Made by a program: the position numbers and the translations under genes. Source: Blastocatellia bacterium (GTDB lineage: Bacteria > Acidobacteriota > Blastocatellia > Pyrinomonadales > Pyrinomonadaceae). Taken from it: a stretch of DNA of 53,531 bases. Below are positions 1,526-11,673 of this stretch, one piece after another. Location: positions 1 to 53,531 of the forward strand of contig JACCVY010000246.1 of assembly GCA_013697915.1 (NCBI GenBank). Direction: 5' to 3'. The stretch's first letter is position 1; each line of letters begins with the position of its first letter. The notes beneath the pieces are model-generated. The model saw nothing but the letters and a program-made list of their open reading frames with translations, was not told where the DNA came from and did not search any database.

Positions 1526-3931
1526 CTATGGACATACAAGATGGACAGTCCCCTGGCCTGTGTAGGACTCGCCATTCTGGTATGTACCCCCTACGGTGAT
1601 CTTGACACTGTTGGTTGTTCCGCTTCGATCTGCCTTCCGTCTCAAGTAAACAATTACGTAAGGCGGACTGTCGTTACCAAAGAAGTCATAGGTGGTTCCA
1701 TCAATAAGGCTCGGCGCAAATTCAAATTTGTTATCGCTAGACAGTATAACGAAACTGGTGGTTGGGTTACTGCAGCAGCCGGCTGAGTATTGTGGTAGTT
1801 GAAACTTAGCCTTAATCGAGAAACGGTCTCCTCCGCAAGCATCCGGCCCAGTTGTTGTACTTATGGTTAAACTGACACTATTAAACTGGTTGAACTGGGC
1901 AGTCTGATTACTGCCTATTAAGGTGACGTCCATAAATCTGATGGCCAGCACATCACAGAGCGCACTTGCAATGAAGGAGTTGTATCGGTGGTAGCAATGC
2001 CCTCCAGTGCAGTTATCTGGATCCCAGTTACAACCGCTAGCATAATAATCGATGTATTGCATATCCCAAGTGGCGTTGATGTTCGTTGACCCTGCGCCCT
2101 GCGCCGTCGCCAGGCCATTTGCGTTAACTGTCGCTACAGCCGTGTTAGTGCTGGTCCAGCTTGCGTCGAGAACTGTCGTTGCAGACAAGATGTTGCCGTA
2201 GCAGTCCTGCTTGCGCTGCTTCGCCGTGAATTGGCTCGTATCACCAGGAAAACCCGTGACACTGCCCGGATCGCACCAGCCATCGAAGAAGGTTGGCGGA
2301 CAGCAGGCGCCACAGGCAGATGTGAGACTCAATCCTCTGACCACATCAACCTGTTCGGCACGTCCAATCATGGTGAGATCCTCGCGACCATCAACCGACC
2401 AATAAACCTGTCCACCTGTTGCATCCCGCGGAATCGTATGCCCGCTTTCGTCCGGTACTTGACTATCACGCAGCTTACGAACGTCCAGGGCTACTGTTTG
2501 CCCGGCCGCAATCGTCTTGATGCCAGGAGCGTACGCGCCACCTTCGTAGTTGATTTGCAATTGATACTTTTGCGGATGATCGGTCGTGTTCTTGAGGTAA
2601 ACAAAGGTTGAAGCGCTGTCTTCAATGCCCCAGGGATATTTTCCCGTGCTGCTGCCTTGCGCTTTTGCATCCACCAGAGGAACGCGAAACACTTGATTGC
2701 CGCTGCTGCTTACACTTTGCGCCGACATGACGACGCTTCCCGGAGGGCCGGAATACTCAAACTCCAAACCTGTTGACGTAATGTTTCGCAGTAGACTCGC
2801 TTTGATAGCTTGCGCCAATCTTACTTCTTTCACTTCACCGGGAGCGAGGCGGACCGTCGGAAGAGATACCACGCCAGAGCTGCCATTGCTTGTGGCGTAC
2901 GGCATGCGTCCGGTTAGAACTACCTGAGACTCACCGCCGTTGCGTACCACCGCAACCTGTGTCAGTTGCTCCCCCGCAATCTTGCCGATGCGCAAGCCCG
3001 CACCATCGAGCCGTGATGATTTTGCGGTTTGTGGATCGGAGAATTCCACCACTGAAGAATAGCCAACCGTCGGCTCCTGAATCAGCGCGCGTGCCAGCAA
3101 TGCGCCGGGAGCGCCGCTATGACTAATAGAGATTCCTCCGACCGCCGCTAAGGTTGCGCGTCTTCCGCGCGCGAGGTCTTGCACATCCATGATGCGTGTT
3201 TCGTGGGGCGTAAGAGATAAAACTTCCGGCACGGTCTGCTTGGGGGCAGTGCCATCCACGATTACGTTCGCGGAGAGCGGCGCATCACTGGTGTTTGAAA
3301 CGATAAGCCGCAGCTCTGCCTTGTGCGATGGCAGCCACCAGACACTTTCGAGCCTGGAGGAGGCGAACATCATAGGCTCGCTCAGTTCCTCATCAAAGAT
3401 TAAGCTACGATTAGTGTCGACCAGCTTAACCACGCCGCCAAGTTCCATGTCTTTCCCTTCGTAATGGACCTGAAGACTGCCTTCGCGAAACGCCGGACCC
3501 GCGGCAGTCACCCATTCACTTAGTTCAAAGCCACGAACCGTGTTCCCTTCGAGTATGATGGGCGGAGCCGCAAACTGTTCGCCGGTAAGACTGAAAAGAG
3601 TGACTCCGATGTTCATGCTGTGCGGTCCCTGATTACTCAGCATGAGGGTCGCGCTCAAGCCGTCATTCAAACTGTAATAAGAAGCGGCGAGCACATGCGG
3701 CATATCCACGTGCTCCTGGGTATGTGTAGAGCCGATTATTCGAGATTTATTTAGAACGGCGTCGCTCCCGCCGGTGGCTCCGCTCTTTGATATCTCGGCG
3801 CGCGCCAGAGAGCCGCCTCTCGGTAGCGGCACGAACGAGACTGCCATTAGAATTATTACTGCGCATGCGGTGAGTAGTTTGTATCCGGTTGCCGCTTTCA
3901 GTTGAGCTTCACGCGATCTTTGGTTTTTCAT
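1526..3931 (-). CDS. large secreted Cys-rich protein with BIG2-like domain
   Basis: The protein is 801 residues from the chosen ATG at 3931, which has GGAGAG five bases upstream and opens a signal peptide with a hydrophobic core (TACAVIILMAVSFVPL) ending near LARAE. Residues of about 30-400 are repetitive beta-type sequence without a recognised family. Around residues 400-560 lies the block duplicated at 112-768. Residues of about 570-630 look like a bacterial Ig-like group 2 (BIG2) fold (DASWTSTNTAVATVNANGL). The last 170 residues are rich in cysteine pairs, as expected of a disulphide-stabilised extracellular domain. The frame stays open upstream to an alternative ATG at 4108, which has its own AGGGG site, so a 59-residue extension or a short upstream peptide cannot be excluded. 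Likely a cell-surface or secreted adhesive protein; the role is inference. Confidence 0.8.
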   Translation of the reverse strand: MKNQRSREAQLKAATGYKLLTACAVIILMAVSFVPLPRGGSLARAEISKSGATGGSDAVLNKSRIIGSTHTQEHVDMPHVLAASYYSLNDGLSATLMLSNQGPHSMNIGVTLFSLTGEQFAAPPIILEGNTVRGFELSEWVTAAGPAFREGSLQVHYEGKDMELGGVVKLVDTNRSLIFDEELSEPMMFASSRLESVWWLPSHKAELRLIVSNTSDAPLSANVIVDGTAPKQTVPEVLSLTPHETRIMDVQDLARGRRATLAAVGGISISHSGAPGALLARALIQEPTVGYSSVVEFSDPQTAKSSRLDGAGLRIGKIAGEQLTQVAVVRNGGESQVVLTGRMPYATSNGSSGVVSLPTVRLAPGEVKEVRLAQAIKASLLRNITSTGLEFEYSGPPGSVVMSAQSVSSSGNQVFRVPLVDAKAQGSSTGKYPWGIEDSASTFVYLKNTTDHPQKYQLQINYEGGAYAPGIKTIAAGQTVALDVRKLRDSQVPDESGHTIPRDATGGQVYWSVDGREDLTMIGRAEQVDVVRGLSLTSACGACCPPTFFDGWCDPGSVTGFPGDTSQFTAKQRKQDCYGNILSATTVLDASWTSTNTAVATVNANGLATAQGAGSTNINATWDMQYIDYYASGCNWDPDNCTGGHCYHRYNSFIASALCDVLAIRFMDVTLIGSNQTAQFNQFNSVSLTISTTTGPDACGGDRFSIKAKFQLPQYSAGCCSNPTTSFVILSSDNKFEFAPSLIDGTTYDFFGNDSPPYVIVYLRRKADRSGTTNSVKITVGGTYQNGESYTGQGTVHLVCP

Positions 3932-4437
3932 CTTGGCTCTCCAGTTAGGTTGGAATTTTTTGAGGCCGGCTGGCAAGACTGTTGCAACCAAAACTGCAGC
4001 AGCAAGCGGGAAACCTCCGTCGCGGAGAATTCCATTTCCGAGGATGTCGCTGTAGGAAACAGGGAAGTACCATTCCGGAGAGGCATGCGCTAAAGCTTGT
4101 GAGTGCATTGAGAGGTCCCCTTTGCAGCTTGACCAACTCGAGGGGAAGTTAACAGGAGAGGAACTCTTTCTGAGGAGTGAGACTCTTGTTAACTGCAAAT
4201 TACAAAGACGAACGCAATCTACTCTCAACGCATAGAGCCGTCAAGGAACACATCGTATAGAAGCAATTCGCGCATGAAGCCTTGGCTAGGACCGATTTGT
4301 ATTCAAGCGACTGACAACTTGAGTGCGATCTTCTTCGTCGGTCGCGGACGTTCGCTCACGGGTCGTGGCAGTTGCTCTAGGGAAGTTCCGAGCCAATCGT
4401 AGTAAACTGGGACCACTGCGCCCTGCGTGGTTCGTCA

Positions 4438-10583: not shown

Positions 10584-10660
10584 CCTTCGTCTAGCATAAT
10601 TTAACTGTCTGCCAACCACGCTGTACCTGTTGAACACTGCTTTGATATACTGAAAAAGCC

Positions 10661-11338
10661 TAGCAAGTGAACAGGTCGGGCGGTCGCTGCTGATTCAAAT
10701 CTCAAATAATCAGATTTCAGATCTCAATTTCAGGTCTTGGATCCAGCTTGAGATAAGGTCAGGAGAGGAAAGTCCGAACACCAAAGGGCAGCGAGCCCGC
10801 TAACGGCGGGGCGTCCGATAATCTCGGATTACAGACTTCAAATCCTGGGTGAAAACTTGAAGTTGCCGCTGGGTCGGCATTGGTCAACCGCGGAATTGAA
10901 ATTTGCAATCTGAGATTAATTGGACGACGACAAGTGCAACAGAAAGCAAACCAGCTTGGTTGGAAATCTCAGATCTAAGATTTGGGATCTCAAAACTGAG
11001 TGATGGGTGAAACGGTGCGGCCCCCAGGGGCTTAAAGTAAGAGCGCACCGGCGCGTCTGGTAACAGATGCGGCCAGGCAAACTCCTCGCGGTGCAAGATC
11101 AAATAGGGAGGCGTCAAAAGGGCTGCCCGCCCAAAGTGGTGCAAACCGCTACGACCTCCGGGTAGATCGCTTGATCCAACTGGCAACAGTTGGACTAGAT
11201 GAATGATCGCCACTCCGATTTGAGATCTCAGATCTTAAGTCCCAAATCTGAGACTCAACAAAGCCAGATTTTTTGAGCTTAAGATTTAATATCTCAAATC
11301 GGAGAACAGAATTCGGCTTATAGACCTGTTCTACTTCG
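10661..11338 (+). ncRNA. rnpB: RNase P RNA, type A, with expanded helices
   Basis: This is the catalytic RNA of RNase P, which trims tRNA 5' leaders. P1 is a perfect 9-bp helix (10669-10677 with 11323-11331) and P2 pairs 10679-10685 with 11205-11211. The conserved core is intact: GAGGAAAGTCCG (10765-10776), AGTGCAACAGAAAGCAAACC (10933-10952), GTAAGAGCGCACCG (11038-11051), AAATAGGGAGGCG (11101-11113), CTAGATGAATGATCGCC (11195-11211) and ACAGAATTCGGCTTATAGA (11306-11324). Usual length is 350-420 nt; this one is about 670. The excess lies in four AT-rich hairpin expansions at about 10690-10760 (P3), 10817-10921 (probably P9), 10953-11000 (P12) and 11213-11304 (P19). A TATACT at 10646-10651 is a plausible -10 box. 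Confidence 0.95.
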
Positions 11339-11394
11339 CTTGGCGCTAAGCATTCTCGGCGCTTCACCAATTTTCGAAAGAGAGGCTGCGATAG

Positions 11395-11673
11395 ATGGCG
11401 AATCGTAAAGGAGTTTTCATTGGCGCGTACGTGCCCAACCATTTGAAGGAGTCCTTAAGGCGGCGTGCGGCGGCCGAACATAGAACCCTCTCGCAGGAGA
11501 TTACGCGCATTCTGGAGGAAGCCGTGCACGGTAAAGGACTACCGGCCGGCAGCGTGGATCGACGCAATCGTGAATCGACGCCACGTCGCCGCACAACTGA
11601 TCCTGCGCCTCGCCGTCGCAACGTCGACATCGATTATTCCCGCGGCAGCAAACCAGGCGACGATCGCAGCTAA
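11395..11673 (+). CDS. ribbon-helix-helix DNA-binding protein
   Basis: The protein has 92 residues. The first 50 form an Arc/MetJ-type ribbon-helix-helix: a beta strand (GVFIGAYVPNHLKESL), then helix 1 (RRRAAAEHRTLSQEI) and helix 2 (TRILEEAV). The remaining tail is very basic and disordered (RRRTTDPAPRRRN). FitA-like antitoxins share this fold, but no toxin gene adjoins it, so a stand-alone regulator is as likely. It begins about 60 bases after the end of rnpB; no separate promoter was identified. Confidence 0.75.
   Translation: MANRKGVFIGAYVPNHLKESLRRRAAAEHRTLSQEITRILEEAVHGKGLPAGSVDRRNRESTPRRRTTDPAPRRRNVDIDYSRGSKPGDDRS

Follow-up and report, generated by a model that had tools for sequence, protein, structure and literature searches.

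Vioque reportedly described, in 1997, STRR (short tandemly repeated repetitive) heptamers in rnpB of heterocyst-forming cyanobacteria. Only helix P12 is said to be lengthened in cyanobacteria, and catalysis in vitro reportedly does not depend on the repeats. To our knowledge, repeats which lengthen the arms of rnpB have previously been described only in cyanobacteria. STRRs have been described as repeats, mostly of 7 bp, which are scattered between genes and form hairpins; no function is known for them (PMC2670836). P12 has been called dispensable in some cases, e.g., in cyanobacteria (PMC2858038). Simple sequence repeats with a heptameric unit, such as GGGNATC in Xanthomonas and Nostoc, also form intergenic 7-nt tandem arrays; these vary in length and sequence between close species (PMC4692102). 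REP/REPIN sequences and Rickettsia palindromic elements are dispersed, palindromic and hairpin-forming repeats. Extended class A RNase P RNAs, e.g., those of CPR bacteria, have lengthened helices and a preserved core; the passages on them mention no shared repeat class (PMC8172020). A literature search retrieved nothing on Pyrinomonadaceae together with RNase P, nor on RNase P RNAs that contain Rickettsia palindromic elements.

Here we examine rnpB, the gene of the tRNA-trimming ribozyme, in a soil acidobacterium of the family Pyrinomonadaceae. It resides in a DNA stretch of 53,531 nucleotides (the window). Named relatives retrieved with the 5' end of the gene are MAGs of Pyrinomonadaceae and of other Acidobacteria, class Blastocatellia. 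The gene carries inserts built from a degenerate 7-nt unit, TYTSARA, in tandem. Like the STRRs, this repeat is dispersed across many intergenic sites, forms hairpins and is present inside rnpB, where it lengthens peripheral helices. It differs from them in that the phylum is another one, the unit is self-complementary, and four helices are affected, up to six in relatives, versus reportedly P12 only. GGGNATC repeats are G-rich and quadruplex-capable, whereas TYTSARA is AT-rich, self-complementary and enters a structural RNA. REP/REPIN and the Rickettsia elements are discrete units of roughly fixed length and sequence; here we see variable arrays of a short unit without fixed boundary. By this comparison the closest precedent is the cyanobacterial STRR in rnpB, and the apparent novelty is another phylum, another unit and four to six helices. 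The original prediction for this locus, which knew of no described case with four related insertions, has to be corrected in so far as this precedent has been described.

We propose that this is the sole class A rnpB of the genome, a working gene, whose outer hairpins are lengthened by TYTSARA arrays of an intergenic family which are tolerated, gained and lost. We put the probability of this reading at roughly 0.8. The features of the locus, all on the forward strand, are as follows.

10631-10651, + strand: promoter-like block GTTGAACA...TATACT, conserved upstream of rnpB in at least 20 family members.
10658-11344, + strand: rnpB, class A RNase P RNA, from the Rfam match at 10668-11336, single copy and P1 pairing; probable ends.
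10688-10764, + strand: extended P3, 77 nt, heptamer units, from the Rfam alignment; identity with the P3 insert in the nearest relative, G004, 92%.
10813-10926, + strand: extended P9, 114 nt, heptamer-like arms and a GC-rich middle, from the Rfam alignment; fold z -6.2.
10957-11001, + strand: extended P12, 45 nt, heptamer units, from the Rfam alignment and the comparison with G004.
11013-11036, + strand: 5' strand of P13 plus a loop insert, 17 nt and GC-rich, from the Rfam alignment; common to several same-genus species.
11212-11305, + strand: extended P19, 94 nt, a long palindromic heptamer hairpin; fold z -9.4; a 20-nt scar in G004.

The covariance model RF00010 matches the gene end to end (model positions 1-367, 236 bits versus a gathering score of 100, E 8e-77). 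All core blocks are found in the covariance alignment and the core is intact; with its full-length match and conserved core the RNA belongs to class A, as had been predicted. The P1 pairing, also predicted, runs on even further outward (GCCTAGC / GCTTGGC), which is seen in relatives as well. Given this outward pairing the transcript probably extends from about 10658 to 11344, i.e., 687 nt, which refines the predicted length of about 670 nt. End points and lengths delivered by the covariance model are unreliable in these genomes: a fast scan put the end of this rnpB at 11280, the full match at 11336. A second rnpB of standard length, which the original prediction had named as a counter-argument, is ruled out by a genome-wide RF00010 search: no further match exists in the 4.5-Mb, 97%-complete genome. 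The promoter-like block was missed by a generic consensus promoter scan. With its full-length match and single copy the gene looks functional, in line with the prediction.

Elsewhere in the window, a small ORF starts at 11395 on the + strand just 3' of rnpB (MANRKGVFIGAYVPNHLKESLRRRAAAEHRTLSQEI); judged by eye, it may encode a ribbon-helix-helix type protein. In G003, G011 and G015, three species of the same genus, the sequence 3' of rnpB begins in a similar way (ATGGCTAATCGC). The neighbouring - strand ORFs 278-769 and 1526-4228 share a near-identical stretch (FRVPLVDAKAQ...GRAEQVDVVRGLSLTSACG), a local duplication.

Against the RF00010 model, P3, P9, P12 and P19 each carry an AT-rich extension between their two strands. 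These are the four predicted helices, P9 having been called probable, and the position between the strands of peripheral helices agrees with the predicted tolerance of such sites. In three same-genus species with a short rnpB the corresponding segments measure 18 (P3), 28-40 (P9), 9-25 (P12) and 17-26 nt (P19). The prediction did not mention the P13 loop insert, GCCCCCAGGGGCTTAAA, a GC-rich hairpin outside the heptamer class which is missing from G003 and G011.

The words which the prediction took to be shared among the inserts occur above chance, yet they are only fragments; the unit is the heptamer. The four inserts contain nine perfect TYTSARA units, whereas dinucleotide shuffling gives 1.4 +/- 1.1 and in none of 2000 shuffles as many as nine; their lag-7 self-match is 0.387 versus 0.253 (again 0 of 2000). 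Nine of the 33 perfect units in the whole window fall in the 678-base rnpB stretch. An 11-mer, AATCTCAGATCT, was discarded as the unit, as the genome contains just two copies of it; the heptamer consensus does find the family. The P9 insert is mixed, with heptamer-like outer arms and a GC-rich middle. TYTSARA equals its own reverse complement, so any array folds into a hairpin, and the predicted self-complementarity is real. The P19 insert forms a hairpin of -39.8 kcal/mol, the outer part of which is the predicted pairing of 11213-11226 with 11291-11304. Folding is clearest in P9 and P19 and weaker in P3 (z -1.5). Since it is expected of any array of a self-complementary unit, folding alone does not show selection.

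The heptamer is by no means confined to rnpB. A genome search, as suggested by the original prediction, allowed up to one mismatch to (TYTSARA)3 and took the same pattern backwards as control; it yielded 22 array sites versus one. The 119 other Pyrinomonadaceae (Acidobacteriota) genomes possess 0-234 sites each, with controls mostly near zero. In a sample of loci from the own genome (G000), G004 and G017, 14 of 17 array clusters lie outside ORFs, though coding sequence, defined by the same rule, makes up 87% of these loci. The arrays are a short-tandem-repeat family scattered through Pyrinomonadaceae DNA, mostly between genes. No known Rfam RNA families were present at the 18 array loci scanned. 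For the P19 insert, 16 genomes of the genus hold only partial matches of 16-50 nt elsewhere; near-identical copies of fixed length, as expected of a discrete mobile palindromic element, did not turn up. A fixed donor such as a REP, a MITE or a Rickettsia palindromic element is therefore rejected for P19. Two loci stand apart. In G004 (L182) heptamer-like units of a longer period lie in a long minus-strand ORF, apparently a repeated LKSEIS-like coding stretch. In G076 (L145) a heptamer array, TTTCAAATCTCAGATCTGAAATC, is located immediately 3' of rnpB, in no helix.

Across about 100 genomes of the family the length of rnpB lies between about 370 and 675 nt. Most heptamer inserts belong to the own genus (g1) and one other (g3), and they are sporadic elsewhere; together they occupy six helices, P3, P9, P12, P13, P15-17 and P19. 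A tree built from the rnpB core requires at least 5, 6, 9, 3, 7 and 6 changes, respectively. Insert presence is patchy, with 3 to 9 changes per helix. The original prediction would have been contradicted if relatives across the class had all carried the inserts. They do not: G003, G011 and G015 have 0-1 genomic arrays, rnpB genes of 403-433 nt and no match to the P19 insert. All sequences compared are draft assemblies (rnpB of G016 is partly N, those of G012 and G005 are truncated by contig ends); nevertheless, assembly artefacts are an unlikely source of the inserts, because separate MAGs agree.

Two or more perfect units are present in 21 rnpB genes, and 19 of these belong to genomes that have 10 or more arrays besides (Fisher p 0.0005, which ignores kinship). 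Phylogenetically independent pairs are too few to reach significance, although nearly all pairs which differ go the same way as this association. Array-poor exceptions exist, as rnpB of G057 and G133 carries units. Conversely, 40 of 59 array-rich genomes have no rnpB inserts; G082, with 234 sites, has an rnpB of 390 nt. Array load is not sufficient for rnpB inserts and predicts them poorly. Separately, one MAG (G048) has two different class A rnpB on two contigs (L143, L144), possibly by contamination. Apparent P3 segments of 95-124 nt in L074 (G042), L079 (G077) and L114 (G095) coincide with Rfam matches of standard length and are probably anchor errors.

The nearest relative, G004, shows how inserts come and go. 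The rnpB cores of G000 and G004 are 97.8% identical. Over aligned bases the P9 and P12 inserts are 84% and 82% identical; P3, P9 and P12 inserts are common to both species and therefore inherited. Thus, the prediction of one repeat class entering this RNA several times holds for the single class, which is present elsewhere in the genome too; separate insertions are unsupported. At P19, the 94 nt of G000 face a 20-nt scar, CTCCGGTGCAAATCGGAG, in G004. The insert's 3' arm survives in the scar, an indication of loss by deletion. At P15-17, G004 has an extra insert (83 versus 46 nt). By alignment, then, at least two large indels separate these two genes.

How the arrays arrived can be seen in two ways. 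An array which starts or lands in the tip of a peripheral helix would merely lengthen that helix; the catalytic core would still fold, and the insert would be tolerated. Afterwards arrays may grow, shrink or get lost, conceivably when replication slips or the template is switched at a hairpin; a first copy may or may not have come from elsewhere. The data agree equally well with copying in and with growth in place, starting from palindromic hairpin tips. In the strict form of the latter, with nothing copied in, slippage or template switching would have lengthened near-palindromic ancestral tips; the intergenic arrays would be independent products of the same bias. The P19 tip of G015, CTTCGATTTAATCGAAG, is such a near-palindrome; short and intermediate P19 forms exist (17 nt in G003, 19 nt in G015 and, as a perfect hairpin, 26 nt in G009, against 94 nt in the present gene), and the P19 insert has no donor copy beyond the partial matches. 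Yet the heptamer appears at helices with differing ancestral tips, e.g., the GC-rich P9 and P13, and in species which have the intergenic family, while species without the family keep short tips. We hold this strict form to be a serious candidate, with somewhat less than an even chance. Estimates concerning array arrival are not exclusive of our main statement.

A stronger claim would be that the heptamer actively spreads and prefers RNase P RNA hairpin tips, rnpB being a recurrent sink in many species through favoured template switching or useful hairpins. This we consider unlikely.

According to our main reading the inserts would be transcribed and, as we assume, kept in the mature RNA as neutral passengers, and passengers are what the arrays most likely are. 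Alternatively, the inserts might be removed or the RNA cut there, like the intervening sequences of fragmented 23S rRNA, leaving a shortened or fragmented mature RNA. RNase III can cut structures of the kind seen in P19, a long perfect hairpin; nevertheless, the sequence bears no marks of cutting sites, and we judge this course of events unlikely.

Could the extensions be functional, kept by selection because they make the ribozyme more stable or recruit a protein or another RNA? They are recurrent in RNase P RNA and absent from tmRNA: tmRNA matches in 14 of these genomes measure 388-402 nt, and none of 13 cleanly cut-out sequences contains a perfect unit, so these tmRNAs are free of inserts. 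(rRNA was found in one of eight genomes checked; the apparent 23S rRNA gap there, in G006 at L200, consists of masked N.) Further, between G000 and G004 only 11 pairs are broken versus 19.5 under random substitution (p 0.006). Fewer broken pairs would, however, be expected under arm-to-arm template correction and under selection for pairing alike, and double compensatory changes are not in excess. Also against a function, number and place of the inserts vary freely between close species, G004 appears to have lost the P19 insert, three species of the genus have none at all, and the cyanobacterial repeats are reportedly dispensable for catalysis in vitro. A selected function thus seems to us very unlikely.

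Ordinary helix-length variation with chance AT-rich sequence is hardly credible: P3, P12 and P19 of RNase P RNA do vary in length in many bacteria, and non-heptamer rnpB extensions occur in this family, too (e.g., G061, G123), but both the number of heptamer units and the period of 7 greatly exceed what shuffles give, and TYTSARA forms a genome-wide family.

In this family nature provides a graded set of versions of a single essential ribozyme, about 370 to 675 nt long, with indels at six helices and sister species which differ by whole inserts. This set allows a test of which peripheral helices of RNase P RNA lengthen freely, and of the birth and loss of a self-complementary heptamer repeat.
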